Below, one piece after another: positions 31,075 to 50,662 of a stretch of 64,000 bases of DNA. The notes under the pieces are model-generated. The model made no database searches and was not told the origin of the DNA. It worked only from the letters and a program-made list of their open reading frames with translations. A program made the translations under genes and the position numbers. The stretch comes from Carbonactinospora thermoautotrophica. Its GTDB lineage: Bacteria > Actinomycetota > Actinomycetes > Streptomycetales > Carbonactinosporaceae. The stretch's first letter is position 1, and each line of letters starts with the position of its first letter. The stretch lies in assembly GCF_001543895.1 (NCBI RefSeq), contig NZ_JYIJ01000014.1:1-64000 (forward strand), in the 5' to 3' direction.

Positions 31075-31902
31075 TTACGGTGTTACATCCTGCAATCGCT
31101 TCTGTCCGGTGCGCACATCGACGTCACCTAAGTCGAAGTCGTGCAGGAGCCTGCGCGTGAGCGGGCTGGGTGCGACCCCCAACTCCGCGCCCAGGATGCT
31201 CGCGCACTCCTCGTACTGCCGGCGTGCTTCACAGAGATTCCCCTGGGCGAGGTGCACGCTGATCATCACCCGGTGCGCGCTCTCGCGCAGCGGGTCGCTG
31301 CCCAGAGCAGCGAGCGCCGCCTCGAGCGCGGCGCCGAAACGTCGTTGCGCCGTCAGGCGTTGCGCGAGAACCTCCAGGGCGTGCAGCCGCAACTGCCGCA
31401 GCCGCTCGCGCTCGAAGACGATCCACTCGTCGTCCCAGCCCGGCATGAGCTCGGCGTCCCGGAGCAGGAGCGGGAAATCCGCGGGTACCCGCTCCTCATC
31501 GGGGAGCAGGATCTCGTGCGCGACGCGCATCACGTCGTGTACGTCCACCCAGACCGACTCCGCCAGGGACAGGATGCCCGGACGCGTCTCGATCAGCCCG
31601 GGGTGATCCCGTTGCAGGCGCCACACCGCGGTCCTCAGGCGCCCCTGGGCGTGTGCCTCGGTGGCTTCCGGCCAGAGCGTGCCGGCGATCTTGGCGCGTG
31701 TCGTAGGCCCACGCAGGGCCAGGAACGTAACGATCCGCCAGACACTGGCCGGCAGTGGCGTAGGAACGTACGTGCCTAACGAGAAGCCGTCGAGCAAGGT
31801 CAGTCGAAGTGTCCCCGTCCCCCGCTCACCGGTAGATCCTTCGCCGGCCCGAGCGGGTAGCCTGTCGGACCACGACTCAAGATCTCCTATATACCGCTCC
31901 AC
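31075..31902 (-). CDS. SARP-family cluster regulator (BTAD domain)
   Basis: 275 residues. The N-terminal OmpR-like winged helix (LRLTLLDGFSLGTYVPT, LALRGPTTRAKIAGTLWPEATEAHAQGRL, near residues 32-90) precedes a bacterial transcriptional activation domain of helical repeats (ALEVLAQRLTAQRRFGAAL, SAHRVMISVHLAQGNLCEAR, YEECASILGAELGVAPSP). This is the pathway-specific activator type of aromatic polyketide clusters. The GTG at 31902 has AGGGGGACAT upstream. Divergent to the biosynthetic operon, which it probably activates. Confidence 0.88.
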   Translation of the reverse strand: MERYIGDLESWSDRLPARAGEGSTGERGTGTLRLTLLDGFSLGTYVPTPLPASVWRIVTFLALRGPTTRAKIAGTLWPEATEAHAQGRLRTAVWRLQRDHPGLIETRPGILSLAESVWVDVHDVMRVAHEILLPDEERVPADFPLLLRDAELMPGWDDEWIVFERERLRQLRLHALEVLAQRLTAQRRFGAALEAALAALGSDPLRESAHRVMISVHLAQGNLCEARRQYEECASILGAELGVAPSPLTRRLLHDFDLGDVDVRTGQKRLQDVTP

Positions 31903-32163
31903 ATGTCCCCCCTAGCGGTCAAGTTCCCCTGAGCCAAAGGTTTGAGTAATTCCATTCGCCTGTCAATACCTAGGTCACTGGGTCACTCGTGTTACTCAGT
32001 TTTACCAATGAGTGGCGCTCGCGAACCTACAGGGAGAAAACGACATTTCAGGACGCGTTCGGAGATTGATTTGCTCTGTGACGCAGCGGTGACGCCGCGG
32101 TGATCCGATGAGCTGTATCACCTTGGATCGGCAGGGCATTCGAATGATCGAACGGGAGTCGTC
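31903..32163. promoter_or_regulatory. Divergent promoter region with GTCACT repeats
   Basis: The 261 bp between the SARP and the SchA/CurD gene contain GTCACT at 31975-31980 and again at 31983-31988, then GTTACTCAG at 31992-32000: short, closely spaced direct repeats of the kind SARP proteins bind. The ATG of the next gene (32164) has GAACGGGAGTCGTC upstream. A promoter -10 was not fixed. Confidence 0.4.
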
Positions 32164-32532
32164 ATGCCGCAATTCGCTGCTGTTACCTGGAAGGTCAAGC
32201 CCGGATATGAGGCGGAACTCGCCGAGTTGTTCGCCAATTACAAGCGCCCTGACTCCTTCATTGTGCGCGACGCCCAGGGAGCCGAGGTCGGCAAGGTCAT
32301 GGCCACCGCGGTGTTCATGAAGGACGACACGATTGTGCGCGTGATCCAGTTCGAGGGCCCGCTGGACGAGGTGCTCCGGCACATGTCCCGCCAGCAGGGG
32401 GTCCGCGAGCTAGAGGACGCGGTGGACAAGTACCTCGTCGAGCCGCGCGACACCACTTCGCCCGAGGGCTTCAGGCAGTTCTTCCAGCGCAGCAGCATGC
32501 GCTGCCTGGTCCAGCGGTTCGCGGACGTGTAG
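32164..32532 (+). CDS. SchA/CurD-like polyketide biosynthesis protein
   Basis: 122 residues. A ferredoxin-like alpha/beta start (QFAAVTWKVKPGYEAELAEL) and DDTIVRVIQFEGPLDEVLRH, SRQQGVRELEDAVDKYL, SMRCLVQRFADV match the SchA/CurD family of spore-pigment and pentangular clusters (WhiE-ORFI relatives). The reported role is in folding or oxygenation of the polyketide, not settled. First gene of the large operon; a short gap of 8 bp leads to the next gene. Confidence 0.8.
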   Translation: MPQFAAVTWKVKPGYEAELAELFANYKRPDSFIVRDAQGAEVGKVMATAVFMKDDTIVRVIQFEGPLDEVLRHMSRQQGVRELEDAVDKYLVEPRDTTSPEGFRQFFQRSSMRCLVQRFADV

Positions 32533-32540
32533 GCCCAGCC

Positions 32541-33434
32541 ATGACGACCGAACTCGCTTTCCTCGGCCTCGGGGGGATGGGGGCCGGGATGGCCCACCGG
32601 TTGGCCGAGCAGGGCTTCGCGCTCACTGTCTACAACCGGACACCGAGCAAGGCGCAGCCGCTCGTCGCCGCCGGCGCGACGGCCGCGGCGACACCGGCGG
32701 AAGCGGCCGAGAAGGCTGACGCGGTCCTGCTCAGCCTGAGCGACGAGGCCGCTGTGGACGCTGTGCTGTTCGAGGCGGGGGGTGTCCAAGAGACGCTGCG
32801 CCCTAAGACACTCGTGATCGACACCTCGACCGTGTCCCCGGCGTACTCCCGTCAGGTCACGCAGCGACTCGCCGCTCTCGGTGCCCGTCGCGTGGAGGCA
32901 TGCGTCCTCGGCAACCCGCACCAGGCCCGCGCGGGCGAGCTGCGCGTGCTGGCAGCAGGCGACGCCGATGCGGTCGACGCGGCGATGCCGGTGCTTGAGG
33001 TACTGGGCAAGCAGGTTGTACGCCTGGGCCCGGTGGGGACAGCGGCCACGACGAAGTTGGCCTTCAACAGCCTCTTGGCCGCCCAGGTGGCGGCCCTGGC
33101 CGAGGCCGTGCAACTTGGCGTGCAGGCCGGACTGGACCGGGACATGCTGCTCGCCGCCATGGCGGGCAGCGGGTTCAGCTCCCCGGTCCTGGCGTTCCGG
33201 GCCGGCCTTATGCGCGAGCGCCGGTACGAGCCGGCCGCCTTCCGGGCCCGGCTCATGGACAAGGACCTGCGGCTCGTCCTCGCCGAGGCCGCACGCCTGG
33301 GCGTGGGGATGCCGGTCGCTGAAGCGGTGGCCCGGTGGTACGGGAGCGTGGTCGAGGCCGGGGACGGCGACCGCGACGCTGCGGTGATCGTCGAGCGGCC
33401 TGCGCCGGCAAACCCTGGAGGTGCGGCGCCGTGA
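32541..33434 (+). CDS. NAD(P)-dependent beta-hydroxyacid dehydrogenase-like protein
   Basis: 297 residues. The N-terminal Rossmann site FLGLGGMGAGMAHRLAEQG, with LTVYNRTPSKAQPLV (Asn-Arg as in NADP users), is followed by VIDTSTVSPAYSRQ and the substrate region GTAATTKLAFNSLLAAQ, whose Lys is the catalytic residue of the 3-hydroxyisobutyrate dehydrogenase family. It reduces or oxidises an acid or imine substrate. Such an enzyme is not a standard part of type II PKS loci. It overlaps the next gene by GTGA. Confidence 0.85.
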   Translation: MTTELAFLGLGGMGAGMAHRLAEQGFALTVYNRTPSKAQPLVAAGATAAATPAEAAEKADAVLLSLSDEAAVDAVLFEAGGVQETLRPKTLVIDTSTVSPAYSRQVTQRLAALGARRVEACVLGNPHQARAGELRVLAAGDADAVDAAMPVLEVLGKQVVRLGPVGTAATTKLAFNSLLAAQVAALAEAVQLGVQAGLDRDMLLAAMAGSGFSSPVLAFRAGLMRERRYEPAAFRARLMDKDLRLVLAEAARLGVGMPVAEAVARWYGSVVEAGDGDRDAAVIVERPAPANPGGAAP

Positions 33435-34465
33435 CCGTCGTCGACGTCCACGCCCACCTGGTCCACCCCGACACCGTACGGCGCTTCCCGGTGCCTCCGG
33501 TGCTGGGTGACGTCGCCGGCCTCGTCGAAGCCAAAGCAGCGGCCGGCATCGACCTCACCATCGTCGGTAGCCCCAATGGGGCTGGCACGATGGTCCCGGT
33601 GCCGGGTGGAGGTAACTATCACCAGCCGCTGGACCGGCTGTGCGCGTTCCACGACTGGCTCGGCCAGGTTGTCGCCGACCATCGGGACCGGCTGCGCGCC
33701 TACGTGTACTGCGATCCCTTCGGTGATGCGCGAATGCTGGAGGCAGCCGCGCAGTACCTGGCGACAGAGGAGTTCGTCGGGATCATCACCAATCCGACGC
33801 TGCGGGGGGAGTATCTCGACTCGCCGCGGGCGGACGACTTCTTCGCCCTCGTCGCGGAGCTCGGCGTGCCGGTCATGATCCACTCCGGTGCGGAGCCCGC
33901 CTGCTGCGCCGGCATCGGCGACTACGGCCTGGTCGAGATGGTAGGCCGGTACTGCGACGTCACTCTCGGGCTCGCCGCCATCGTGCTGTCTGGACGGCTC
34001 GAACAACACCCCGATATCCCAATCATTGGCACGGCCAGCGGTGGCGCGCTCAACCTGCTGGCCGGGCGCCTCGACCTGGCCTGGCGACCGCGCCACTGGG
34101 GGCCGGCCGCCACCGGCGGTGAGGACGGCAGGCCCGGACAGCTGGACCGAGCGCCCCACCGGAGCAGGACCAAAGCGCCGCCGAGCGAGCTGGTACGACG
34201 CCTGTACGTGGACACCAGCCTCGACGGGCGGCATGCGCACCTGGTCAACCTCGAGGTGTTCGGTCCGGACCGAATGCTGTTCGGCACCGACTGGCCGCCT
34301 GTGCCTGTGGATCACGCGGCCAAGATCCGCATGGTGGAGGAGCTACCGGTCGCCGACGCCGAGCGGCAGGCGATCCTTGGCGGTACGGCGCTGCGCCTGT
34401 TCGGCCTGGAGGAGCCCGGCGGTCCGGCCGTCCTCGCGGCCCAGGCAGAGGGGAGCCAGCCGTGA
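33431..34465 (+). CDS. Amidohydrolase-2/ACMSD-like family protein
   Basis: 344 residues. The metal site begins VDVHAHLVHPDTVRRFP (HxH at about residues 5 and 7), continues with VPVMIHSGAEPACC (His) and ends FGTDWPPVPVDHAA (Asp). The fold is that of aminocarboxymuconate decarboxylase and aromatic acid decarboxylases (gamma-resorcylate, 5-carboxyvanillate). The GTG start is chosen because the ORF upstream is Arg-rich and the overlap with the previous stop is GTGA. In a polyketide cluster a decarboxylase would fit removal of the terminal carboxylate. Inference only. Confidence 0.82.
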   Translation: MTVVDVHAHLVHPDTVRRFPVPPVLGDVAGLVEAKAAAGIDLTIVGSPNGAGTMVPVPGGGNYHQPLDRLCAFHDWLGQVVADHRDRLRAYVYCDPFGDARMLEAAAQYLATEEFVGIITNPTLRGEYLDSPRADDFFALVAELGVPVMIHSGAEPACCAGIGDYGLVEMVGRYCDVTLGLAAIVLSGRLEQHPDIPIIGTASGGALNLLAGRLDLAWRPRHWGPAATGGEDGRPGQLDRAPHRSRTKAPPSELVRRLYVDTSLDGRHAHLVNLEVFGPDRMLFGTDWPPVPVDHAAKIRMVEELPVADAERQAILGGTALRLFGLEEPGGPAVLAAQAEGSQP

Positions 34466-34788
34466 GCCACCGCACCTTGATCGTCGCCCGGATGGACCCG
34501 GCGGACGCCGAGCGGGTCGCAGACATCTTCGCCGAGTCCGACGCCGGTACCCTGCCGCGGCGCATCGGGGTCACCCGGCGCAGCCTATTCAGCTTCCACG
34601 GCCTGTACTTCCACCTCATCGAGGCGGAGCGCGACATCGGGCCGGCACTGGCGGTGCACCGGGACGACCCCGACTTCCTCGACATCAACCGCCGCCTCAG
34701 CGCGTACATCACCGCATACGACCCGCAGACCTGGCGCGGTCCACGCGACGCCATGGCCCGTGAGTTCTACACCTGGCAGGCCTCCTGA
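34462..34788 (+). CDS. TcmI-family type II polyketide cyclase
   Basis: 108 residues, the usual TcmI length. It has TLIVARMDPADAERVADIF, PRRIGVTRRSLFSFHGLYFH and DINRRLSAYITAYDPQTW. These dimeric alpha/beta barrel proteins close the later rings of tetracenomycin-type polyketides. The GTG start overlaps the amidohydrolase stop by GTGA. The gene lies with other cyclase-type genes. Confidence 0.9.
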   Translation: MSHRTLIVARMDPADAERVADIFAESDAGTLPRRIGVTRRSLFSFHGLYFHLIEAERDIGPALAVHRDDPDFLDINRRLSAYITAYDPQTWRGPRDAMAREFYTWQAS

Positions 34789-34819
34789 CCGGCGGCCACC
34801 ACGATCCAGGGGGGACGCG

Positions 34820-36442
34820 ATGACCACGCTGATCAACGAGACCACACCTGACACCCGGGGCCGGGCCGCACCCCCGGCGGTCCGGACCCGCCGCTCGACC
34901 CGCGAGCGGGTCGCGGAGCTGGCCCGCATCCGGGAGGAGGCGCACCGTGGCCCGGACCCGGCGGCGACCAAGCGCCAGCACGCGAAGGGCAAGCTGACCG
35001 CCCGCGAGCGCATCGACCTCCTGGTGGACCCCGGGTCCTTCACCGAGTTGGAGCCGCTGCGCCGGCACCGGGCGAGCGGCTTCGGCCTGGAGCGGCGCCG
35101 CCCGTACACCGACGGGGTCGTCACCGGCTGGGGCACCGTGCACGGGCGTCAGGTCTTCGTGTACGCGCACGACTTCCGCATCTTCGGCGGATCGCTCGGC
35201 GAGGCACACGCCCAGAAGATCCACAAGCTCATGGACCTGGCCACGACCACCGGAGCGCCTCTCATCGGGCTCAACGACGGCGCCGGTGCCCGCATCCAGG
35301 AGGGGGTGACGGCGCTCGCCGGCTACGGCGGGATCTTCCGGCGCAACGTCGCAGCCTCCGGAGTCATCCCGCAGATCAGCGTGATGCTCGGCCCCTGCGC
35401 CGGGGGCGCCTCGTATTCCCCGGCGCTTACCGACTTCGTGTTCGCGGTGCGCGGCACCGCGCACATGTTCATCACCGGGCCCGACGTGGTGGCCGCGGTG
35501 ACGGGGGAGCACGTCAGCCACGAGGAGCTGGGCGGGGCGCTCACCCACGCCACGCGCTCCGGCGTGGCCACGTTCGTCCACGACGATGAGGCCGACTGCC
35601 TGGAGGACGTGCGCTTCCTGCTGTCCCTGCTGCCCTCCAACAACGCTGAGCTGCCCCCTTACTACCCGCCGGACGACCCCGCCGACCGGTCCTGCGATGC
35701 GCTGCTCGACCTGGTACCGGACGACCCGGCCCGGCCGTACGACATGCGGGCGGTGATCGCTGAGATCGTGGACGACGGCGAGTACCTGGAGCTGCACGAA
35801 GCCTGGGCGCCCAACGTCGTGTGTGCGTTGGCTCGCCTCGACGGCCACGTCGTCGGGATCGTCGCCAACCAGCCCCAGGTGCTCGCGGGCGCCCTAGACA
35901 TCCACGCCTGCGAGAAGGCCGCCCGGTTCGTGCGCACCTGCGACGCCTTCAACATCCCGCTGGTCACCCTGGTCGACGTGCCCGGCTTCCTGCCCGGCAC
36001 CGAGCAGGAGCACGGCGGCATCATCCGGCATGGGGCGAAGCTGTTGTACGCGTACTGCGAGGCCACCGTGCCCCGCGTCCAGGTGATCCTGCGCAAGGCG
36101 TATGGCGGCGCGTACATCGTCATGGACTCGCGCTCTATCGGCGCGGACCTGTCCTACGCCTGGCCGACCAACGAGATCGCCGTGATGGGCGCCGAGGGCG
36201 CCGCCAACGTGATCTTCCGCAAGGAACTCGCCGCCGCGGCCGACCCCGGCGCGCTGCGTCGGCGGTTGGTCACCGAGTACGCAGAACAGCTCATGCACCC
36301 GTACTACGCCGCGGAGCGCGGCCTGGTCGACGACGTCATCGATCCTCGCGACACCCGCCGGGTGATCGCGCGCGGCCTCGCCATGCTGCGCTCCAAGCAC
36401 GCGAACCTACCCCACCGCAAGCACGGCAACCCGCCACTGTAG
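34820..36442 (+). CDS. Acyl-CoA carboxylase carboxyltransferase (beta) subunit
   Basis: 540 residues, the usual AccB/PccB length. Evidence: [75 protein letters not shown] (oxyanion loop), [15 protein letters not shown] and [41 protein letters not shown]. It transfers CO2 from biotin to an acyl-CoA, here presumably acetyl-CoA to malonyl-CoA. No biotin-carrying alpha subunit is in the cluster, so it must use one from elsewhere. The epsilon subunit is at 41528. Confidence 0.93.
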
Positions 36443-36480
36443 CCGCCGATCAGATCACCAGCCGAATCCAGGGGGTGCTC

Positions 36481-36900
36481 GTGTCCCGCAAGCACACGAC
36501 GATCACCGTCGACGACGTGCCCGCCAACCGTCGCCGCGGCGGCGATATCCGCGCCCTGCTCACCCCGACGACGGTCGGGTCGACGTCGGGGTTCCTGGGC
36601 GTCGCCACGATCGCGCCCGGTGAGTTCATCAGCGAGCACTACCACCCGTATTCCGAGGAGTTCGTGTACCTGGTCCGCGGTGCGCTCACCGTACGGCTGG
36701 ACGGGGAGCCGACCGAACTACGCGCCGGGCAGGCGGTGTTCATCGCCTGCGAGGTCCGCCACCGGCTGGAGAACCACGGTGACGAGGACGCGTTCATCGT
36801 CTTCCACCTTGGACCGCTCGCCCCCCGCCCCGACCTGGGCCACGTGGACACCGAGGAGCTGCCGCACCCAGAGGCGCCGCTGCCCGGAGGCACCCGGTGA
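36481..36900 (+). CDS. Cupin-domain protein
   Basis: 139 residues. Cupin motif 1 in [19 protein letters not shown] (His, His, Glu) and motif 2 in [19 protein letters not shown] (His). Cupins in type II PKS clusters (for example in pentangular and angucycline-type loci) act as cyclases or oxygenases; metal-site residues are present here. The GTG at 36481 follows CAGGGGGTGCTC. The stop overlaps the KS-alpha GTG by GTGA. Confidence 0.85.
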
Positions 36901-38168
36901 GCGGCCGGCGCGTCGCCGTCACCGGCCTCGGCGTCGTCGCGCCGGGCGGCATCGGCACCAAGGCCTTCTGGGAGCTGCTCACCGCCGGGCGGACCGCCAC
37001 GCGCGCGATCACCCTCTTTGACCCGACCGGCTTCCGATCCCGGATCGCCGCGGAGTGCGATTTCGACCCGGCGGCGGAGGGGCTGTCACCGCAGGAGACC
37101 CGGCGGATGGACCGGTGCGTGCAGTTCGCGGTCGTGGCTGCCCGCGAGGCGATCGCCGACGCCGGCCTGGAACCGGACAGCGAGCCCTCGCACCGGATCG
37201 GCGTCAGCATCGGCAGCGCGGTCGGCTGCACGATGACGCTGGAAGAGGAGTACGTGGTGGTCAGCGACCACGGCCGGCACTGGCTGGTCGACCACACGTA
37301 CGCCATTCCGCACCTGTACCAGAGCCTGGTGCCGAGCACGCTGGCCGTCGAGGTGGCCTGGCTGGTCGGTGCCGAGGGCCCGGCTGCCGTGATCTCCACC
37401 GGGTGCACGTCCGGCTTGGACGCGGTGGGCCATGCCGCTGCCCTGATCGCCGAGGGCTCGGCCGATGTGGTGATCTCAGGTGCGTCCGACGCGCCGATCT
37501 CGCCGATCTCGGTCGCCTGCTTCGACGCGATCAAGGCGACGTCGCCTAACAACGCGGATCCTGAACATGCCTCGCGGCCCTTCGACCGGCACCGCGACGG
37601 GTTCGTGCTCGGCGAGGGGGCCGCGGTGCTCGTCCTGGAGGAGTACGAGCGCGCCCGGCAGCGCGGCGCCCACGTGTACGCCGAGATCGCCGGGTTCGCC
37701 AGCCGCAGCAACGCCTACCACATGACGGGGCTGAAGCCGGACGGCCTGGACATGGCCGAGGCGATCCGGGCCGCGCTCGACCAGGCGCGGCTGAACCCCG
37801 ACGACGTCGACTACATCAACGCCCACGGCTCGGGCACCCGGCAGAACGACCGGCACGAGACCGCCGCGTTCAAGCGCAGCCTGGGCAGGCGCGCGTACCA
37901 GGTGCCGGTCAGCTCCATCAAGTCGATGGTGGGCCACTCGCTCGGTGCTATCGGCTCGATCGAGTTGGCCGCCTGCGCGTTGGCGATCGAGCACGGCGTC
38001 GTGCCGCCCACCGCCAACCTGACGACACCCGACCCAGAGTGTGACCTGGACTATGTGCCGCGCACCGCCCGCGAGCAGCAGGTCGACGTCGTGCTCAGCG
38101 TGGGCAGCGGTTTCGGCGGCTTCCAGACCGCGGTGCTGCTGGCTCGTCCCGGGGAGGTGGCGAGGTGA
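36897..38168 (+). CDS. Type II PKS ketosynthase alpha (KS)
   Basis: 423 residues, the usual KS-alpha length. The active-site Cys is Cys 170 in [10 protein letters not shown], with His 310 (NAHGSGT) and His 347 (SMVGHSLGA). It condenses malonyl-ACP with KS-beta into the poly-beta-ketone. GTG start overlapping the cupin stop; overlaps CLF by GTGA. Confidence 0.96.
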
Positions 38169-39385
38169 TCGGGAACCCGGTGATCACTGGGATCGGCGTC
38201 GTCGCTCCTAACGGGTTCGGCGCCGAAGAGTACTGGCAGGCGACCCTGGCCGGGCGGAGCGGCATCCGCCCCATCAGTCGCTTCGATGCTGCCCGCTACC
38301 CCGTACGGCTCGCGGGCGAGGTGCGCGACTTCGAGCCTGCGGACCACGTGCCGAGCCGTCTGATCGTCCAGACCGACCGCTGGACGCAGCTGGCGCTCAC
38401 CGCCACCGCCATGGCGCTGCAGGACGCGGCCATCGACCCGGCCGGCCTGCCCGAGTACGAGATGGCGGTCGTCACCGCAAGCTCCTCAGGCGGCAACGAG
38501 TTCGGCCAGCGCGAGATCCAGAGCCTGTGGAGCAAGGGGTCGCAGTTCGTCACCGCGTACCAGTCGATCGCCTGGTTCTACGCCGCCACCACCGGCCAGA
38601 TCTCCATCCGCCACGGCATGAAGGGTCCCTGCGGGGTGGTCGTGACTGAGCAGGCCGGCGGTCTGGACGCGGTCGCCCAGGCCCGTCGCGTGCTGCGGCA
38701 GGGGGCGCGCATCGCGGTCACCGGTGGCACCGAGGCGCCCCTCGGCCCCTACGCGCTGACCTGCCAGTTGCCCAACGGCCGGCTCAGCACCCGTCCCGAC
38801 CCGGCCCGGGCGTACGTGCCGTTCGACGTGGCCGCCTGCGGCTACGTGCCGGGCGAGGGCGGTGCGATCCTCATCGCCGAGCAACCGGCGGCGGCCCGGG
38901 AGCGGGGCGCCCGCGTCTACGCGGAGATCGCCGGGTACGCGGCCAGCTTCGACCCCCGGCCGGGCAGCGGCCGTCCGCCCGCGCTGCGCCACGCGATCGA
39001 GGGGGCGCTCATCGACGCGGGGTGCGCGCCCGAGGAGATCGACGTGGTCTTCGCCGACGCGGCTGGCGTGCCCGCGCTCGATCGGGTGGAGGCCGACACA
39101 CTGGCGTTCGTCTTCGAGCCTTACGGCGTGCCGGTCACCGCCCCGAAGACCATGACTGGCCGCCTGTACGCGGGGGGCGCCGCGCTCGACCTCGCCGCTG
39201 CGGTCCTCGCGCTGCGCGACCAGGTGATCCCGCCGACCGTCGGCGTGTGCGAGGTGCCGGCGGACTACCAGCTCGACCTGGTACGTGACCAGCCCCGCCC
39301 GGCCAGATTGCACGCCGCCCTTGTGGTAGCGCGCGGCTTTGGCGGGTTCAACGCGGCCGTGGTCGTACGGCGCTTCACCGACTGA
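38165..39385 (+). CDS. Type II PKS chain length factor (KS-beta/CLF)
   Basis: 406 residues. The KS fold is the same but the active Cys is replaced by Gln 163 in [10 protein letters not shown], the hallmark of a CLF. Together with KS-alpha it sets chain length and starts synthesis by decarboxylating malonyl-ACP. The GTG at 38165 overlaps the KS-alpha stop (GTGA), so the two are made in equal amounts. Confidence 0.96.
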
Positions 39386-39426: not shown

Positions 39427-40895
<1,469 letters not shown>

Positions 40896-40896
<1 letters not shown>

Positions 40897-41757: not shown

Positions 41758-42210
41758 GGAGACTTCTGAGGTTGTCACGCCGCCGTGGTGACCGGTGTGG
41801 TGTGGGCTGGTAGCACCGTCCGTCGTGAGGCAGCGCCAAGACGTTGACGCGGCGTCGGGCGGGGGTGAGGACAGCGGCGAGGAGTTGCAGCAGTTCGTCG
41901 CCTGCCACCCGACGCGACAGCAGCCGCCTGCCTTCCGCGTCGGTCACCACACAGTGGTGGTGGGTCTTCCCGGCATCCACGCCCGTCTAGGCCACGGGCA
42001 CTTCCGCAGGTTCGAGGTGTATCCGTCCCGCAGACGACCTCGCCGGCGTTGTCCTACATAGCGATACGTTCGCACATCCCGATCGGCGGCCAGGTCGTCG
42101 CGGGGCGCCAGACGGCCCAGTCTCCCGAACCGCGCACAGCAACGTCATACCAGCCACCCGGCGCCCCCAGGTGATCAGAACCCTCCGAGTGGCCCGATCA
42201 ACCCGGGAAG
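41758..42210 (-). pseudogene. IS110 remnant with an internal deletion
   Basis: The minus strand reads the N-terminal RuvC-like start VDAGKTHHHCVVTDAEGRRL directly joined, in frame, to the C-terminal tail ARRRVNVLALPHDGRCYQ, so the central two thirds is gone. A TAG sits just before the start region where Trp is expected. The right end (GTTGTCACGCC near 41774) and left end with CCTACATAGCGATA match the other copies. The left end finishes at AAGAAAGGTAGGACGCC, right in front of the NmrA ATG. Confidence 0.7.
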
Positions 42211-43073: not shown

Positions 43074-43074
43074 G

Positions 43075-43557
43075 TCATCCGTCCCGGGTGGACGCCGCGG
43101 TGAACAGCCGCTGCAGCAGCTCATACAGCTGTGTGCGCTCGGCCTCGTTCAACGGTTCCATGAACTCCTCGCTGAGCTGGATCTGCACGGTGCGGACGTG
43201 CTCGATGTGGGCGCGGCCGGCGTCGGTGAGCTGCAGGAGGATCGCGCGACGGTCCTTCGGATCGGCGACGCGGGTAAGGAGGCCTTCGCGTTCCAGGGCG
43301 TCGACGACTGTGGTGACCGTGCGGCCGGCGACGCCGAGTTCGCTCGCGATGTCGCCCATCCGGGGGGTTCCGCCGTGGTCCCAGAGGGCCTGGAGCAGGC
43401 GCATCCGGGGGACCGACATGTCGTAGTCGGCCAGGCGGGCGTTGTGGTGGCGTTTCAGCAGGTGGGTGACCTGGAGCAGGGTTTCGACGACCTCGGCGGG
43501 CGAGGGCGGGCGGCCGCTCGGGGCCGGGGTGGGGCCCGGGGCCTCATCCCTTGACAT
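43075..43557 (-). CDS. MarR-family regulator
   Basis: 160 residues. Winged helix: RLLQALWDHGGTPRMGDIAS, ELGVAGRTVTTVVDALEREG, RVADPKDRRAILLQLTDAGR (the wing with the DxRA signature). Such proteins repress efflux genes and release them on binding the product. It is divergent from the drrA-like ABC gene, the expected target. Confidence 0.9.
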   Translation of the reverse strand: MSRDEAPGPTPAPSGRPPSPAEVVETLLQVTHLLKRHHNARLADYDMSVPRMRLLQALWDHGGTPRMGDIASELGVAGRTVTTVVDALEREGLLTRVADPKDRRAILLQLTDAGRAHIEHVRTVQIQLSEEFMEPLNEAERTQLYELLQRLFTAASTRDG

Positions 43558-43648
43558 GCCATATCCTCCTGAGTATGTTCACTGACGCAACTATGATAGA
43601 TGCAGCACTCACTTTATACGATGCAGCAGTTATGTGAAAGAGACTACG
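43558..43648. promoter_or_regulatory. Divergent marR/drrA operator region
   Basis: 91 bp holding ATGCAGCA (43599-43606) and again ATGCAGCA (43621-43628), each in the context GATGCAGCA/CGATGCAGCA. ATATCCTCCT at 43560-43569 is the ribosome binding site of marR read in complement. The repeated motif is the likely MarR operator or overlaps the drrA promoter. Confidence 0.4.
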
Positions 43649-44635
43649 ATGAACGGAAACGATCTGGCGATCCGGGCCGAGGGGCTGACCAAGCGGTTCG
43701 GGTCCACCGAGGCCCTGCGTGGGCTCGACCTCCACGCCGAGGCCGGTACCGTGCTCGCGGTTCTCGGACCCAACGGCGCCGGGAAGACCACCGCCGTACG
43801 CATCCTCACCACACTCCTGAAACCGGACTCCGGCTGTGCCGAGATCGCGGGGTTCGACGTCGTCCGCGACGCCGCCAAACTACGTGCCCACATCGGGCTG
43901 ACCGGGCAGTACGCGGCCGTGGATGAGCACCTGACGGGCCGGGAGAACCTGGAGCTGATCGGCCGCCTGTACCACCTGGGTCGCCGCGATGCGCAGCGGC
44001 GGGCCGCCTGGCTGCTGGAGCGGTTCGACCTCACCGACGCCGCCGGGCGACTGGTCAAGACGTACTCCGGCGGCATGCGCCGGCGTCTCGACCTGGCGGC
44101 GAGCCTCGTCATGGCGCCTCCCGTCCTCATCCTCGACGAGCCGACCACCGGTCTTGACCCGCGCAGTCGCCTGGCCGTGTGGGAGGTCGTCGAGGAGTTG
44201 GTCACGGCCGGCACCACGGTCCTACTCACCACCCAGTACCTGGAGGAGGCCGACCGGCTGGCCACGCGCATCGCCGTCGTCGACGGGGGACGTGTCATCG
44301 CCGAGGGCACCTCGGACGAGCTCAAGGCCCGCGTCGGCGGGGAGCGGCTGGAGATCACGCTGGAGGCCGGGGACGACACGAGCAAAGCCGCCGAGGTGCT
44401 CGCCGCCCACGGGCACGGGGAGATCCACCTCGCCCGGGCGCGTAACTCCCTGTCGGTACCCGTCAGCGACGGCGCCCGTCGCCTCGCAGAGATCGTCCGC
44501 GACCTGGACGCGGCCGGAGTCCACGTCGTCGACTTCGGCGTCCGCCGGCCCACGCTGGACGACGTCTTCCTCACCCTCACCGGCCACACCACGGCCGGGG
44601 AGACCGAGGAGGACGAGGGGAGGGAAGCTGCCTAA
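43649..44635 (+). CDS. drrA: Daunorubicin-type exporter ATPase (DrrA)
   Basis: 328 residues. Walker A VLGPNGAGKTTAVR, signature TYSGGMRRRLDLAASL, Walker B VLILDEPTTGLDPRS, H-loop LLTTQYLEEADRLA, and the DrrA-type C-terminal domain (GVRRPTLDDVFLTLTGH). It energises product export through the DrrB permease. ATG 43649 follows GAAAGAGACTAC. The cognate drrB lies 1.4 kb downstream because an IS110 sits between the two. Confidence 0.93.
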   Translation: MNGNDLAIRAEGLTKRFGSTEALRGLDLHAEAGTVLAVLGPNGAGKTTAVRILTTLLKPDSGCAEIAGFDVVRDAAKLRAHIGLTGQYAAVDEHLTGRENLELIGRLYHLGRRDAQRRAAWLLERFDLTDAAGRLVKTYSGGMRRRLDLAASLVMAPPVLILDEPTTGLDPRSRLAVWEVVEELVTAGTTVLLTTQYLEEADRLATRIAVVDGGRVIAEGTSDELKARVGGERLEITLEAGDDTSKAAEVLAAHGHGEIHLARARNSLSVPVSDGARRLAEIVRDLDAAGVHVVDFGVRRPTLDDVFLTLTGHTTAGETEEDEGREAA

Positions 44636-44643
44636 TGTGCGTG

Positions 44644-45846
44644 TCAAGCCGCAGCGGCGCGCGGCCGTGGCTGGTAGGGCTGGCGGGTGCGCAGGATCGC
44701 GTGCAGGACGTTGACGCGTCGGCGGGCCAGGGCGATGAGGGCTTGGTGGTGGCGTTTACCTTCGGCGCGTTTGCGGGCGTAGAAGGCGCGGCTGGTCGGG
44801 TCGCGTTGGATGGCGCAGAACGCGGACTGGTAGAAGACGCGTTTGAGGGCCTTGTTGCCGGCGGTGGCGCGCTGCAGGTAGCGGACCTTGCCGGACTGTT
44901 TGAGGACCGGGGCCAGGCCCGCGGCGGAGGCGAGCTGGTCGGCGGTGGGGAACCGGGTGATGCCGCCTGCCTCGGCGAGAAACTCCGCGGTGAGGGTGGC
45001 CCCCATCCCGGGCAGGCTGCGGACGAGGGCCGCGTCAGGGTGGCGCTGCAGCACCGCCTCGATGCGCTGGTCGATCTGGTGGAGCCGGTCGCGGGTGGTG
45101 AGCGCTTCGCGGGCCAGATCGCGGATGATGTCGGCGGCCACGGCCTCACCGGGGATGGTGACGTGCTGGGCGTGCGCCGCGGTGAGCGCGGCGTCGACCA
45201 GGGCATTGATCGTGACCGCCTTCAGGTTCCCCGCCCTGACCAGGTGCCTGCTCAGGCGGGTGCGTCCGGCGGCGCGGATCTCGCCGGGGGTGACGTAGCG
45301 GGTCAGCAGCCACAGCCCGGCCTTGCCGGTCACGTCCACCACCCGTTCCAGGCCGGGGAAGATCGAGGCCAGCAGGTCCCGCAGCCGCCCCAGGCGGCGG
45401 GTCTGGTCGGCCACCAGTTCCCGGCGGCGCCCGACCAGCAGCCGCAGCTCGGCGTCGATCTGGTTCAGGCCGGTGACCGGGCGCAGGTCCTCGCGCATGC
45501 GGACCTGGTCGGCGATCACTCGTGCGTCTTTGGGGTCGCTTTTGCGTTCCCCGCCCACGGTCGCGCGGCGGGCCCGGTTGACCGCCAGCCCGGGCACGTG
45601 CACCACCCTCAGCCCCGCCTCCAGGAGCATCGCCTGCACCAGTCCGGCGATCCCGCCCAACACGTCCACCCCGACCGTGGCCGGGCCGTGCTGCACCTGG
45701 GCGGCCTCGATGTCTGCGATCAGCGTCTGGATCCCGGCCGGGGTGTTGTCCACCCGTCGGCTGACCAGCACCTTTCCCGTCTCGGCGACCACGAGCACGG
45801 CCCAGTGGAACTCCTTGGCCACATCGATCCCGACCGCGACCGCCAT
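44644..45846 (-). CDS. IS110-family transposase (DEDD), copy B
   Basis: 400 residues from the ATG at 45846. VAVGIDVAKEFHWAVLVVA and GERKSDPKDARVIADQVRM are the DEDD domain; PGMGATLTAEFLAEAGG and RDPTSRAFYARKRAEGKRHH are the Tnp_20 domain with the Ser. The frame is intact. A longer reading frame starts at 45897, but the family pattern begins at 45846. Confidence 0.87.
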   Translation of the reverse strand: MAVAVGIDVAKEFHWAVLVVAETGKVLVSRRVDNTPAGIQTLIADIEAAQVQHGPATVGVDVLGGIAGLVQAMLLEAGLRVVHVPGLAVNRARRATVGGERKSDPKDARVIADQVRMREDLRPVTGLNQIDAELRLLVGRRRELVADQTRRLGRLRDLLASIFPGLERVVDVTGKAGLWLLTRYVTPGEIRAAGRTRLSRHLVRAGNLKAVTINALVDAALTAAHAQHVTIPGEAVAADIIRDLAREALTTRDRLHQIDQRIEAVLQRHPDAALVRSLPGMGATLTAEFLAEAGGITRFPTADQLASAAGLAPVLKQSGKVRYLQRATAGNKALKRVFYQSAFCAIQRDPTSRAFYARKRAEGKRHHQALIALARRRVNVLHAILRTRQPYQPRPRAAAA

Positions 45847-46060
45847 GCCCCTCCCTTCCCTGGTAGCGACCATGCCCGGCTTCCGTCCGCCGTCCATGCC
45901 CTACACAGCGATCTGTCGCAGTGCCTAATCAGCGGTCAGACGAAAGCGACGGGACCGGGGGCCAAGCCTCCCAAGCCATCACCGGCAGCCGACATGACAA
46001 CCATCCCGGCCCCGTCTGCGTACTCCGATCCTTCCGGACGGCCGGAGCACGAACAGAAAG
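45847..46060 (-). ncRNA. Candidate bridge RNA region of IS110 copy B
   Basis: The non-coding left end (214 bp) upstream of the transposase, corresponding to the bridge RNA region of the IS110 group. It shares CCTACACAGCGATC and ATCAGCGG segments with copy A (near 29240-29280). Inferred from family knowledge; no fold was computed. Confidence 0.4.
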
Positions 46061-46070
46061 GTAGGGCGGC

Positions 46071-46919
46071 ATGAGCACCACCGTCACCCCCGCGGCGAAG
46101 GCGGTCGCCACGCTGGCTGCCGCCAGCAGCCCCTCGCCGTTGCGGCGCGGCGCCCTGTACTGGGCGTTCGCCGACGGCCTCGTGCTGGCCGGGCGCCAGC
46201 TGCGCAAGATCCCACGGGTGCCGGAGCAGCTAGTGTTCGCCACGGTGCAGCCGATCCTGTTCGTGCTGCTGTTCCGGTACGTGTTCGGCGGCGCCATCCA
46301 CCCGGAGGGCACGACGTACCCCAACTTCCTCATGGCCGGTGTCTTCGTGCAGACCGTGGTGATCGGCTCGGCCGCCACCTGCGTCGGCATCGCCGAGGAC
46401 CTGCAGTGCGGTCTCATCGACCGTTTCCGGTCCCTGCCGATGGCTCGCTCGGCCGTGCTGACCGGGCGCACGCTCGCCGACGCTGCCCGCAACCTCTTCA
46501 CGGTCGCGGTCATGTTCGGGGTGGGCCTGGTCGTCGGCTTCCGGCCCCAGGGCAGCCCGCTTGCCTGGCTGGAGGCGATCGTGTTGCTGCTGCTCATCGG
46601 GTACGCCTTCTCCTGGGTGGGAGCCACCATCGGACTTGCCGTACGCACCGTCGAGGCCGCGCAGTCGGCCGGCCTGTCCTGGGTGTTCCCGCTGACCTTC
46701 CTGAGCAGCGCCTTCGTACCCACCGAGACCATGCCGGGCTGGCTGCGCGCCTTCGCTGAGAACCAGCCGATCACCGCCTTCATCGAGGCCGTCCGTGCCC
46801 TGCTGCTGGACCGGCCGGTCGGTTCCTCGGTCGCGATCACACTCGCCTGGACGATCGGCGTCTTGTGCGTGTTCGCGCCGCTGTCGGTGGCCCTGTACCG
46901 GCGCGTCACCACCCGCTAG
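46071..46919 (+). CDS. drrB: Daunorubicin-type exporter permease (DrrB)
   Basis: 282 residues, ABC-2 type membrane protein with about six hydrophobic segments (for example LFVLLFRYVFGGAI, VAVMFGVGLVVGF, AIVLLLLIGYAFSWVG, IGVLCVFAPLSVALY). It pairs with DrrA for export of the aromatic product. Its ribosome binding site AAAGGTAGGG is within or at the edge of the IS110 end. A 16-bp terminator hairpin follows at 46921. Confidence 0.92.
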   Translation: MSTTVTPAAKAVATLAAASSPSPLRRGALYWAFADGLVLAGRQLRKIPRVPEQLVFATVQPILFVLLFRYVFGGAIHPEGTTYPNFLMAGVFVQTVVIGSAATCVGIAEDLQCGLIDRFRSLPMARSAVLTGRTLADAARNLFTVAVMFGVGLVVGFRPQGSPLAWLEAIVLLLLIGYAFSWVGATIGLAVRTVEAAQSAGLSWVFPLTFLSSAFVPTETMPGWLRAFAENQPITAFIEAVRALLLDRPVGSSVAITLAWTIGVLCVFAPLSVALYRRVTTR

Positions 46920-46920
46920 C

Positions 46921-46964: not shown

Positions 46965-47055
46965 GAGACGTGACGGCCGGGTGACGGTGCCGCCACTACA
47001 AACAGCTCGCGAAGTCCAACGGGCCACCTGAGGACCCGGCGAGAAAGAGGCGACC

Positions 47056-48084
47056 ATGACCGATCTCCAGGGCCAGCCACACTCCCCGCCGCCACCGGCG
47101 AGGGTTATGCAGATGATCTGCGGGTACTGGGTCACCCAGTCCATTCACGTAGCCGCCGAGCTGCGGATCCCCGATCTCATCGCCGCCGGCACCGGCAAGC
47201 TGGACGACCTCGCAACCGTCACCGGGGCGCACCCAGGCGCCCTCGCCCGGCTGTTGCGCGCCCTGGAGAGCCTCGAACTTCTGGCGCGCCAGTCCGACGG
47301 GCGCTACCAGCTCACGCCGCTCGGCGAGTGCCTGCGCGAGGGGGTACCGAACTCGATGCGCAACCTGGCACTGCTGGCCGGGGAGGAGCACTACCGCATC
47401 TGGGCACACCTGGACCACAGTGTGCGCACCGGTGAGCCCGCCCTGGAGCGGGCGCTTGGCGCGCCCTTGTGGGCATACCTGGAGACCCACCCCGAGGCGG
47501 CTGTCCGCTTCAACAACGCCATGTCGGACCTGGCACGCAACGTCCACCTGGCAGCCGTCGCCGCGTACGACTTCAGCACGGTCAAGAAGGTCGTCGACGT
47601 GGGCGGCGGCACCGGCAGCCTGCTGGCGCACGTGCTTGCCACGCACGACCACCTCACCGGGGTGCTGTTCGACCTGCCGCGTGTCGTCGCCAAGGCCGGC
47701 CCGGTGCTCGAGCAGGCGGGCGTGCAAGACCGGTGCGAGGTGGTCGGCGGAGACTTCTTCGCCGGCGGCGTGCCGACTGACGGCGACGTGTACCTGATGT
47801 CGCTGGTGCTGCACGACTTCGACGATGAGCAGTCCGTCCGCATCCTCAAGAGCGTCCGCGAAGCGATCCCGGACCACGGCAAGCTCGTCATCCTCGAGCA
47901 GGTCGTGCCGGCCGACGGCAAGCCGCACATCTCCAAGCTGGTCGACGTCAACATGCTCGTGGTCAGCGGCGGGCGGGAGCGCACCGAGGCGGAGTTCGCC
48001 CAGCTCCTCAACAGCGCCGGATTCCGGTTCGAGAGCACGTTGCCCTCTCCCACGACGATCAACGCCATCGTCGGCACCCCGTGA
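47056..48084 (+). CDS. O-methyltransferase (SAM-dependent, DmpM/TcmO-like)
   Basis: 342 residues. N-terminal dimerisation/winged helix (IHVAAELRIPDLIAAGTGKL, HPGALARLLRALESLELLAR) and a C-terminal Rossmann domain with VVDVGGGTGSLLAHVLATHD (SAM motif I), GDFFAGGVPTDGDVYLMSLV and ILEQVVPADGK. It probably methylates a phenol hydroxyl of the polyketide. An independent promoter is likely, as a terminator precedes it. It ends in a GTGA region with a possible P450 start at 48081. Confidence 0.92.
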   Translation: MTDLQGQPHSPPPPARVMQMICGYWVTQSIHVAAELRIPDLIAAGTGKLDDLATVTGAHPGALARLLRALESLELLARQSDGRYQLTPLGECLREGVPNSMRNLALLAGEEHYRIWAHLDHSVRTGEPALERALGAPLWAYLETHPEAAVRFNNAMSDLARNVHLAAVAAYDFSTVKKVVDVGGGTGSLLAHVLATHDHLTGVLFDLPRVVAKAGPVLEQAGVQDRCEVVGGDFFAGGVPTDGDVYLMSLVLHDFDDEQSVRILKSVREAIPDHGKLVILEQVVPADGKPHISKLVDVNMLVVSGGRERTEAEFAQLLNSAGFRFESTLPSPTTINAIVGTP

Positions 48085-48113
48085 CATCTCCTGACCTGAA
48101 GGGAACAGCTGGC

Positions 48114-49397
48114 ATGACACCCCAGGCGCACAAGACCGAGGAGTACTCGTACCCCGAGTTCTTCACCGACGACTTCATCAAGAACCCGTACCCGACCTAC
48201 GCCCACCTGCGCGAGAACGAACCGGTCTTCCACACCACATACCCGGGGGAGCCAGTCGAGATCTACGTCCTGTCCCGGTATGACGACGTCAAGGAAGCGT
48301 TCAGCCACCCGTGCATCAGCAAGCAGCGCAAGCACGTCACCCAGGGCCTGCTCGCGCCGAACGCCATGCACCGCAAGCTCAAGGGCTTCCACACCAACCT
48401 CGTCATGGTCGACCCGCCGGTGCATACCCGGATGCGCAAGGTCGTAACCCGTGAGCTCAACCCGGCCCGGATCAACGCGCTGAAGGAGCGCGCCCAGGAG
48501 TACATCGACGAGCTCATCGACGCGATGGCGCCGCGCGGCGAGGCCGACCTGATCGGCGACTTCGCCAACCCGCTGCCTACGAAGGTGCTGGGCGAGTGGA
48601 TGCTCGGCATCCCGCCGAGCAAGGAGTGGGACGAGTTCCTGGAGAAGTCCACGCTGCTCGTCACGCCCCGTTACGACTACCGGGCTGAGGACTACGACGC
48701 GCTCAAGCTCACCATGAACGAGTTCATCCTCGACCTGTTGGAGCACAAGCGCGCCAACCCCGCGGACGACCTGCTGACGGCGTTCGTCACCGCCCATGCC
48801 AACGGGGAGATCGACGACGACGAGGTCATCGGCATCACGGTCACCATGCTGCTCGCCGGGTTCGCCTCGACCACCTTCCTCATCGGCAACGCCGCACTCG
48901 CTCTGCTCACCCACCCCGACCAGATGAAGCTCCTGCAGGAGCGCCCCGAGCTGCTGGACTCCGCGGTCGAGGAGTTCATCCGGTACGACGGGTCGATGCA
49001 GACCGCCACCTTCCGGTTCACGTCCGAGGACCTGGAGATCCAGGGCACCACGATCCCGCGCGGATCGATCATCGTGCTCGCGCTGGCCAGCGCCCACCGC
49101 GACCCGGATGCGTTCGAACGGCCCGACGAGTTCGACATCACGCGTGGGCACAACCCGCACATGGGGTTCGGGCTCGGCGTCCACTCCTGCCCGGGCAACC
49201 GGCTGGGCCGGCTGTTCACCAAGATGGCGATCGGCAGCCTGGTGCAGCGTATTCCGGATCTGACCCTGGCCGTCGACCCCGACGAGCTGAAGTGGCGTCC
49301 CGGCCTGCTGCACCGCGGCCTATTCGAGCTGCCCGTGCGGTTCACCCCGCAGCCGGGGCCCGCGACAGGTGCGGTGTCGGAGGAGGTGACGCCATGA
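48114..49397 (+). CDS. Cytochrome P450 (1), altered I-helix
   Basis: 427 residues. Heme loop FGLGVHSCPGNRLGR with Cys 359 as the iron ligand; ExxR in EEFIRYD. The I-helix motif, normally AGxET, reads LLAGFASTTFLIG, so the acid-alcohol pair (Glu/Asp-Thr) is Ala-Ser. This may affect oxygen activation and is unusual for a monooxygenase. ATG 48114 has AAGGGAACAGCT upstream; GTG 48081 (overlap with the methyltransferase stop) is an alternative. It overlaps the next P450 by ATGA. Confidence 0.92.
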   Translation: MTPQAHKTEEYSYPEFFTDDFIKNPYPTYAHLRENEPVFHTTYPGEPVEIYVLSRYDDVKEAFSHPCISKQRKHVTQGLLAPNAMHRKLKGFHTNLVMVDPPVHTRMRKVVTRELNPARINALKERAQEYIDELIDAMAPRGEADLIGDFANPLPTKVLGEWMLGIPPSKEWDEFLEKSTLLVTPRYDYRAEDYDALKLTMNEFILDLLEHKRANPADDLLTAFVTAHANGEIDDDEVIGITVTMLLAGFASTTFLIGNAALALLTHPDQMKLLQERPELLDSAVEEFIRYDGSMQTATFRFTSEDLEIQGTTIPRGSIIVLALASAHRDPDAFERPDEFDITRGHNPHMGFGLGVHSCPGNRLGRLFTKMAIGSLVQRIPDLTLAVDPDELKWRPGLLHRGLFELPVRFTPQPGPATGAVSEEVTP

Positions 49398-50662
49398 CCG
49401 AGACTGGCCCGGCCATTTCGATGTTCGGGCCGGATTTCCACGTCGACCCGTACCCGACGTACGCGCGGCTGCGGGACGAAGCGCCGGTCTGCCGGGTGAC
49501 CACGCCGATGGGGTTCGACACCTGGCTCGTCACCCGCTACGAGGACGCCCGCGCGGCGCTCGCCGACCCGCGGCTCAGCAAGGACATGCACCTCGCTGGC
49601 CAGAAGTACCTGGAGATCTTCGGCGAGACGTCCGCGGCGCTCGACGAGAACATGCTCAACTCCGACCCGCCGAACCACACCCGGCTGCGGCGCCTGGTCT
49701 CCAAGGCGTTCACACCGCGGCGGATCGAGGCGCTGCGCCCCCGCGTCGAGGAGGTGGCCGAGGAGCTCCTCGACAAGATCGCCCCGCACGGGGAGGCGGA
49801 GCTCATGAGCGACTTCGCCTTCCCGCTGCCGGTGACAATCATCTGCGACCTGCTCGGGGTACCACCGCAGGACCGGGAGGCGTTCACCGGGTGGGCGCGC
49901 AGCATGGGCACGTTCGGGTTCGACGACAGCGGCGCTGCCCAGGACGCGGAGCGAAGCCTGTACAACTACCTGACCCGGCTTATCGAGCGCAAGCGCGCAC
50001 AGCCTGAGGAGGATATGCTGAGCGCGCTCATCGCCGCCCGGGACGGGGAGGGTCGGCTGTCGGAGAGCGAGTTGATCTCGACGGCGTTCCTCCTGCTGTT
50101 CGCCGGTCACGAGACCACCGCCAACTTCATCGGCAACGCCGTCCTGGCGCTGCTGCTCAACCCCGAACAGATGCGGCTGCTGCTCGACAAGCCGGCACTG
50201 CTGCCGGGCGCGATCGAGGAACTGCTGCGGTATGACGGATCGGTCGAGAACGCGACCTTCCGGTTCGCCGCCGAGGACCTAGAGATCGCCGGGACCCGCA
50301 TCCCCAAGGGGTCAGTGGTGACCATCGTGCTCAACTCCGCCAACCGTGACCCCGCCCGGTTCACCGACCCCGATCGGGTCGACATCACCCGCGCGGAGAA
50401 CGCGCACCTGGCGTTCGGGCACGGTATTCATTACTGCCTCGGCGCGCCGCTCGCCCGGATGGAGGCGCAGATCGGGATCGGCATGCTGCTGCACCGGCTG
50501 CCCAACCTGTGCCTCGCGGTACGCCCGGACAAGCTGCGCTGGCTGCCGGCGGCTGTCCCCTTCCGGGGACTGCACGAACTGCCGGTGTGGTTCACCCCGG
50601 AAGTCACCCACAGCCGGAAGGACGCTTGGCGGCTCTCCGGGGCGAGCGCGACAATCACCTAA
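49394..50662 (+). CDS. Cytochrome P450 (2), canonical
   Basis: 422 residues. Heme loop FGHGIHYCLGAPLARME, ExxR in EELLRYD, and the normal I-helix LLFAGHETTANFIG. ATG 49394 overlaps the P450 (1) stop. An IS5-type element starts within its TAA: T60 belongs to the host and the following A bases to the IS. The host sequence across the empty site would read TAG, so the protein end is unchanged. Likely a tailoring hydroxylase of the polyketide. Confidence 0.94.
   Translation: MTETGPAISMFGPDFHVDPYPTYARLRDEAPVCRVTTPMGFDTWLVTRYEDARAALADPRLSKDMHLAGQKYLEIFGETSAALDENMLNSDPPNHTRLRRLVSKAFTPRRIEALRPRVEEVAEELLDKIAPHGEAELMSDFAFPLPVTIICDLLGVPPQDREAFTGWARSMGTFGFDDSGAAQDAERSLYNYLTRLIERKRAQPEEDMLSALIAARDGEGRLSESELISTAFLLLFAGHETTANFIGNAVLALLLNPEQMRLLLDKPALLPGAIEELLRYDGSVENATFRFAAEDLEIAGTRIPKGSVVTIVLNSANRDPARFTDPDRVDITRAENAHLAFGHGIHYCLGAPLARMEAQIGIGMLLHRLPNLCLAVRPDKLRWLPAAVPFRGLHELPVWFTPEVTHSRKDAWRLSGASATIT

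Follow-up and report, generated by a model that had tools for sequence, protein, structure and literature searches.

A predicted pentangular-type polyketide cluster of Carbonactinospora thermoautotrophica with a rare but recurrent dehydrogenase-amidohydrolase-P450 gene set

The closest described systems to the locus studied here are the pentangular clusters, which, according to PMC4383371, have in common TcmN-, TcmJ- and TcmI-like cyclases, an adjacent pair of ABM monooxygenases and a C-6 ketoreductase (KR). The same paper describes frankiamicin as a 24-carbon pentangular compound and the KR as the sole tailoring gene of the Frankia clusters, and reports that, in its related set, a type III ketosynthase or a stand-alone adenylation domain is present where a cluster uses a non-acetate starter. 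An amidohydrolase gene, rslH, is present in another aromatic polyketide cluster, that of rishirilide, where its deletion had no effect on production according to PMC7221717. Here we describe an intact type II polyketide synthase (PKS) cluster located at positions 31075-50662 of a 64,000-nucleotide stretch of Carbonactinospora thermoautotrophica (contig NZ_JYIJ01000014.1, positions 1 to 64,000, forward strand; hereafter the window).

We think it somewhat likely that this locus is a type II PKS cluster of pentangular type equipped with a portable tailoring set, in which a HIBADH-like dehydrogenase, an ACMSD-like amidohydrolase (AmidoH) and a PikC-like P450 (P450b) belong together. Judged by gene content, it would be a variant within a known cluster type, distinguished by a dehydrogenase-amidohydrolase-P450 set that is rare yet recurs in other genomes. 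The host is the sole genome of its own family in our collection, shares its order with a Streptomyces-like genus and encodes RuBisCO; it looks like a rare autotrophic lineage.

A pentangular-type core with additional enzymes

The cluster comprises 22 biosynthetic, regulatory and transport genes, all intact, plus one IS110-family open reading frame (ORF) that lies on the minus strand between drrA and drrB. The genes, in their order along the window, are the following:

31075-31902, minus strand: SARP-type regulator (Pfam PF03704, E 2.4e-13)
32164-32532, plus strand: SchA/CurD-like protein, 122 aa (PF04486, E 4.5e-46)
32541-33434, plus strand: HIBADH-like beta-hydroxyacid dehydrogenase (PF03446, E 4.9e-42; PF14833, E 1.3e-20)
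33431-34465, plus strand: AmidoH, ACMSD-like amidohydrolase, 344 aa (PF04909, E 3.7e-25)
34462-34788, plus strand: TcmI-type cyclase (PF04673, E 4.1e-44; TcmI 1tuw, E 1.1e-27)
34760-36442, plus strand: acyl-CoA carboxylase (ACC) beta subunit, carboxyltransferase (PF01039, E 5.9e-197)
36439-36900, plus strand: cupin, probable TcmJ-type cyclase (PF07883, E 8.6e-19)
36897-38168, plus strand: ketosynthase alpha (KS-alpha), Cys170 (Pfam E 1.5e-56; actinorhodin KS 1tqy_A, E 7.8e-183)
38165-39385, plus strand: chain length factor (CLF, KS-beta), Gln163, gate N-G-I-Y-A (1tqy_B, E 2.6e-142)
39427-39684, plus strand: acyl carrier protein (ACP), DSL motif at 40 (Pfam E 4.2e-11)
39681-40181, plus strand: single-domain aromatase/cyclase (ARO/CYC; polyketide cyclase 3tvr, E 4.1e-61; TcmN 2rer, E 1.2e-54)
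40159-40896, plus strand: KR, probably of the pentangular (C-6) type (Pfam SDR, E 2.9e-68)
40896-41216, plus strand: ABM monooxygenase 1, ABM1 (PF03992, E 5.3e-12)
41213-41521, plus strand: ABM monooxygenase 2, ABM2 (PF03992, E 3.7e-13)
41528-41737, plus strand: ACC epsilon subunit (PF13822, E 2.2e-12)
42225-43073, plus strand: NmrA-like NAD(P)-binding reductase (PF05368, E 4.2e-49)
43075-43557, minus strand: MarR-family regulator (PF01047, E 5.6e-13)
43634-44635, plus strand: DrrA-like ABC ATPase (PF00005, E 1.9e-30; PF13732)
46071-46919, plus strand: DrrB-like ABC-2 permease (PF01061, E 5e-28)
47056-48084, plus strand: O-methyltransferase (PF00891, E 7.1e-53)
48081-49397, plus strand: P450a (PF00067, E 1.9e-29)
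49394-50662, plus strand: P450b, PikC-like (PikC 2vz7, E 1e-118)

The best Pfam E-values over the 22 genes, from 4.2e-11 (ACP) to 5.9e-197 (ACC beta), are far beyond chance. The genes named in an earlier, sequence-only reading were all found open and in place, including the claimed KS-alpha Cys170 and CLF Gln163, and to that list we add the two ACC subunits and the IS110 ORF, which it had omitted. That reading had also placed the dehydrogenase and AmidoH between the SchA/CurD and TcmI genes with overlapping stops and starts; overlaps of 4 nt were indeed present at HIBADH/AmidoH (GTGA at 33431) and AmidoH/TcmI (GTGA at 34462), as well as at P450a/P450b, but SchA/CurD and HIBADH are separated by a gap of 8 bp. 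The start at 33431 (344 aa) is the most likely one for AmidoH, as is that at 49394 for P450b.

Genes of all six kinds shared by the pentangular clusters (the three cyclases, the two adjacent ABM genes and a KR that is probably of the C-6, BenL/PdmG-like type) occur in the window, together with the minimal PKS (KS-alpha, CLF and ACP, recognised by Pfam and structure-sequence matches), and neither a type III ketosynthase nor a stand-alone adenylation gene is found among the 22 cluster genes. ABM1 and ABM2, the putative counterparts of PdmH and PdmI, are 65% and 48% identical to the pair of the Pseudofrankia locus L030, and the cupin is 60% identical to the L030 cupin. Among the matches listed over at least half of the length within the set of KS loci, identity to the window KR is 50-60% for the KRs of five loci with a pentangular gene set and at most 43% for those of other loci. 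The closest solved relative of the ARO/CYC is 3tvr, followed by TcmN, and that of the small cyclase is TcmI.

A pentangular-type core is thus supported by the gene content, which agrees with the marks given in PMC4383371. The likeness to the frankiamicin (fkm), pradimicin and benastatin clusters (TcmN/TcmJ/TcmI-type cyclases, adjacent ABM pair, matching KR) is known from published description (PMC4383371). Compared with frankiamicin and the other pentangular clusters, the window has in addition SchA/CurD, HIBADH, AmidoH, the ACC subunits, NmrA, the O-methyltransferase, two P450s, DrrAB, SARP and MarR.

The KR YxxxK, the ACP DSL and the haem-Cys motifs of both P450s are intact. P450 I-helices usually include an acid-Thr pair; the I-helix of P450a reads AGFAS and lacks it, so P450a may not be a normal monooxygenase. 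In the SARP regulator the BTAD domain alone was recognised, the N-terminal DNA-binding domain giving no match at E 0.001.

Ketosynthase phylogeny and the chain length gate

A scan of genome contigs with KS-alpha returned at least 80 loci, a set from which closer kin may have been missed. The KS+CLF tree had 69 rows, two of them for the second type II cluster of the host, and was built by a quick method with SH-aLRT support; its class labels follow our own gene-content rule, and its rows include no characterised reference clusters. The sequence-only reading had proposed a phylogeny of KS-alpha and CLF against characterised type II PKSs as a check, with a place in an ordinary spore-pigment clade as one adverse outcome. 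The window fell outside the 17-row clade of spore-pigment type (support 100), inside which the second cluster of the host (C19:1160555) was found. Instead, it formed the basal branch of a clade of 36 rows (support 99), among them L031, L034, L009 and L069, four loci that have the pentangular gene set. Among the matches listed, its nearest rows were L009 (Sphaerisporangium corydalis) and L069 ([Actinomadura] parvosata), which resemble it in KS (77% and 74% over the best segment), cupin, TcmI, KR, ABM1 and ABM2; they differ in having no match to HIBADH or AmidoH in the stretch examined, and in their CLF gate residues.

The gate was mapped on positions 109, 112, 116, 194 and 195 of the actinorhodin CLF, positions given in PMC4383371. 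The window reads N-G-I-Y-A and L030 N-G-L-Y-A; G-G-L-Y-S is present in the 13 rows that make up an inner spore-pigment clade, and F-G-L-W-G or F-T-F-W-G in most others. Because frankiamicin has 24 carbons and L030 has a gene set resembling the one published for it (PMC4383371), the chain made by the window cluster would perhaps also have 24 carbons. This estimate is weakened by the gates of the pentangular-type loci of its own clade, L009, L069, L031 and L034, which differ (TGIYG, TGMYG, VGLYG and VGIFG among the four), and by the spore-pigment-type CLF of the host, which reads NGIYA exactly as the window does.

These gate residues, together with the tree, also weigh against the pentangular-type reading itself. 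The window sits at the very base of its clade; 31 of the 36 rows there have no pentangular label (2 with cupin and ARO only, 29 others), and two further pentangular-type loci, L030 and L136, lie elsewhere in the tree, L136 with a cut CLF and a long branch. Our confidence in this reading is lowered because tree and gate give no specific link to the pentangular-type loci nearest to it. The tree rules out a place in the spore-pigment clade without establishing, by itself, one in a pentangular clade, so the pentangular-like core of the sequence-only reading stands on gene content and gains no specific grouping from the phylogeny.

A recurrent dehydrogenase-amidohydrolase pair and its active sites

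AmidoH matched the structures 4icm (E 7.9e-11) and 8yt2 (E 9.1e-10), and shares with the ACMSD family (Amidohydro_2) the metal-binding HxH, His and Asp, which in the window are H7, H9, H151 and D287. In an alignment of 28 AmidoH sequences the three His ligands were kept in every row and the Asp in 27, the exception being a fragment. In contrast to ACMSD, none of the 28 has a His at the ACMSD His228 position, which is occupied by Thr (18), Ala (6, including Ala202 of the window) or Gly (4), while the Trp194 position is Glu throughout (window Glu169) and an insert of variable length precedes the last strands. The Arg239 position carries Arg in 20 and Lys in 8. In ACMSD the H228A change lowered the decarboxylation kcat 142-fold with retention of oxaloacetate tautomerase activity, as stated in PMC11650718. 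Since AmidoH keeps the metal site but lacks an equivalent of His228, plain decarboxylation of the ACMSD type is doubtful. A second, unrelated Amidohydro_2 protein of the window (61794-62801) has a His (VEH) in what by eye is apparently the same loop. An Amidohydro_3 protein is encoded elsewhere in the window, at 16009-24646, where it accompanies genes with matches to the alpha and beta subunits of D-lysine 5,6-aminomutase and to a MutL protein, as well as weak matches to a dehydrogenase and a radical-SAM protein.

Lys172 of the HIBADH KLxxN motif was kept in 20 of 20 aligned sequences, that of G777 being left out, and all 20 have LGN at 123-125, where the family has a serine-glycine-glycine motif. 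For 3-hydroxyisobutyrate and tartronate-semialdehyde dehydrogenases the protein scored far below every curated NCBIfam cut-off, with 176 bits for its best match (cut-off 397) and 151 bits for HIBADH (cut-off 292).

AmidoH genes were searched for in four overlapping draws with differing cut-offs, and found in 6 of 394 genomes of the class (the host included); the genus of G182 gave 17 of 295 genomes, the family of G055 5 of 250 and the order of G370 1 of 35. One of the 80 KS loci listed (L054) had a match in the stretch examined, and the plasmid collection gave a single one, in an unannotated stretch from Nonomuraea gerenzanensis (L136); 91 plasmid records matched KS, with gene names of a general kind only in the 40 listed. 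In the open-licence literature searched, MIBiG aside, we found no characterised cluster with both HIBADH and an amidohydrolase. The two extra enzymes, which the sequence-only reading had called not standard, are rare, but that description is incomplete, as 28 distinct AmidoH genes (window included) were found and the pair recurs in L130, L102 and stand-alone operons.

Seventeen of the 28 lie in a stand-alone operon, ABM-HIBADH-AmidoH-P450, seen in one Streptomyces-like genus and without KS in the 12-40 kb examined. Ten accompany type II PKS genes, eight with KS-alpha in the stretch (the window, L130, L102, L054, L134 with L051, L136, G055 and G798) and two with other type II PKS genes only (G777 and G815); one (G851) is unclear. 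Every one of the ten PKS settings had SchA/CurD close to AmidoH, as did none of the 17 operons, and L130 and L102 have the order SchA/CurD-HIBADH-AmidoH-cupin-KS-CLF, similar to that of the window. AmidoH has an oxidoreductase gene next to it in 27 of 28 cases, labelled HIBADH in 20 and, by tblastn matches to the window KR and NmrA, SDR-like in six and NmrA-like in one. The SDR-like gene replaces HIBADH in L134, L136, G055, G815 and G798 and accompanies it in G777, and the NmrA-like gene is that of L054. In G851 (L227/L228, C13:107949-108902) AmidoH stands beside an ABM gene, with no adjoining oxidoreductase or KS match. Near the variable insert, the operon AmidoH of L133 (8474-10672) is split or truncated; in L130 this insert is expanded and forms a long stretch rich in Gly and Ser.

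The stand-alone AmidoH, HIBADH and P450 each formed one supported clade (100, 99 and 100), with long-branch warnings for the window AmidoH and HIBADH. P450b is 54-58% identical to the operon P450s and groups with them and with two P450s of Geodermatophilaceae type II PKS clusters (support 89). Because the operon P450 is close kin of P450b, HIBADH, AmidoH and P450b look like one portable tailoring set.

We propose that an acetate-primed chain, perhaps of 24 carbons, would be cyclised to a pentangular core, with the ACC subunits supplying part of the malonyl-CoA and DrrAB exporting the product. HIBADH, AmidoH and P450b would, with moderate confidence, act on the polyketide as one unit: P450b would add an oxygen, HIBADH would alter the oxidation state either there or at an adjacent position, and a metal-assisted step by AmidoH would follow. 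Given a kept metal site and the missing decarboxylation His, isomerisation, dehydration or ring closure would be favoured here over simple decarboxylation, and which of the three it might be is a guess. More tentatively still, the His-less AmidoH, HIBADH and the PikC-like P450 could form a portable module that performs a new metal-dependent, non-decarboxylating step, is found in a few pentangular and spore-pigment-like clusters and, as a detached operon in some Streptomyces-like genomes, finishes the spore pigment of a distant whiE cluster. The proposal places two seemingly odd genes in a module that recurs, draws attention to a family of enzymes in which the fold hints at decarboxylation while the active site argues against it, and offers a testable lead, namely that the Streptomyces spore pigment may be tailored by genes outside whiE.

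Alternative readings and insertion elements

Could the window be a spore-pigment (whiE-type) cluster? The cupin, the TcmI-type cyclase, the single-domain ARO and the gate NGIYA are common to it and the spore-pigment-type cluster of the host, the closest solved ARO, 3tvr, is one which we take to be the WhiE aromatase, and the AmidoH-bearing L130 lies inside the spore-pigment clade. The KS/CLF of the window, however, lies outside that supported clade, its KR, two adjacent ABM genes, ACC, DrrAB, SARP and two P450s speak for something else, and the host already owns such a cluster at C19:1160555. On tree and gene content we reject this reading, which we regard as very improbable. A possible but distinctly less favoured alternative concerns AmidoH, which might be an ordinary ACMSD-like decarboxylase that uses another residue as its base and removes the terminal carboxyl of the polyketide, HIBADH being an unrelated reductase. 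Its intact metal ligands and the Arg or Lys found at the Arg239 position in 28 of 28 fit this idea, and most of the solved relatives found are decarboxylases (of 5-carboxyvanillate, ACMS, uracil-5-carboxylate and gamma-resorcylate); the loss of His228 in every sequence, the invariant Glu in place of Trp194 and the cost of H228A to ACMSD (PMC11650718) argue against it, as does the fact that HIBADH and AmidoH are neighbours both in the stand-alone operons and in type II PKS clusters from three lineages (window, L130, L102).

It is improbable, in turn, that HIBADH-AmidoH-P450-ABM is a small-molecule catabolic set whose capture was a chance event. That 17 of the 28 AmidoH genes have no KS around them within the stretch examined would agree with such an origin, but the ten type II PKS settings (counting the window), seven of them present in the KS tree and spread over at least three parts of it, the constant presence of SchA/CurD near AmidoH in these ten, and the observation of stand-alone operons only in genomes with a spore-pigment-type KS all point the other way.

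Returning to the reading of a pentangular-type cluster with a portable tailoring set, its product, which the sequence-only reading thought could be a new aromatic scaffold, and its reactions are predicted from sequence, and other observations count on the negative side with those from the tree and the gate. P450b lies 15 kb from HIBADH and AmidoH in the window, so that the unit is deduced from other genomes; the identities are low (HIBADH 39-48%, AmidoH 39-54%) and the tree branches long, so HIBADH and AmidoH may not have one function in every setting. As the stand-alone operon shows, no PKS need lie next to the set for it to exist. The His228 equivalence comes from sequence alignment, the AlphaFold model of AmidoH, from a two-sequence run, being poor (mean pLDDT 45.7). 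Finally, export could have suffered from the IS110 ORF that separates drrA and drrB.

A link between the operon and spore pigment is suggestive, and we treat it as a lead only. All 17 genomes with the stand-alone operon have a KS at least 75% identical to the spore-pigment-type KS of the host, whereas, at 74% or more, such a KS is present in 8 of the 17 genomes used for comparison. In the draw of 295 genomes, taken to be the same genomes as in the AmidoH draw since the handles agree as far as listed, a whiE-type KS was found in 194: 15 of 15 with the operon, 2 of 2 whose AmidoH belongs to a PKS cluster and 177 of the 278 that lack AmidoH (15/15 against 177/278, Fisher p 0.0017, with an E cut-off set after the 17-against-17 comparison had been viewed). 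In an rpoB tree of 80 genomes, picked by handle order, the operon was scattered, with 10 changes. The 33 genomes labelled whiE-negative there comprised 19 listed as such and 14 assigned by their absence among the matching genomes. After tree correction the association was not significant, with six independent pairs on supported branches and a median p of 0.25; the two traits changed the same way in 2.6 of the six pairs on average, never in opposite ways, and showed no difference in 3.4.

The insertion elements raise the further question of whether the cluster is decaying and silent, which we consider doubtful. Two features lie within it:

41906-42117, strand not assigned: IS110-like remnant (a 219-bp match at 67% identity to 29091-29307, which lies at the end of the upstream IS110 ORF)
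44644-45897, minus strand: IS110-family transposase ORF between drrA and drrB (PF01548, E 1.2e-39; PF02371, E 2.2e-22)

Others flank it, namely an IS110 ORF at 27996-29225 and an IS630-like element directly upstream, and a DDE transposase at 50686-51489 downstream. Decay would be consistent with these flanking and interrupting elements, but every biosynthetic reading frame and every active-site motif checked is intact. The IS110 ORF occupies the drrA-drrB gap at 44635-46071, and its insertion may have uncoupled the two pump genes; in L009 the drrA and drrB matches are only 36 bp apart. The element at 29456-30671, which we read as IS630-like, has 19-bp inverted repeats at 29456 and 30653 and broken reading frames.

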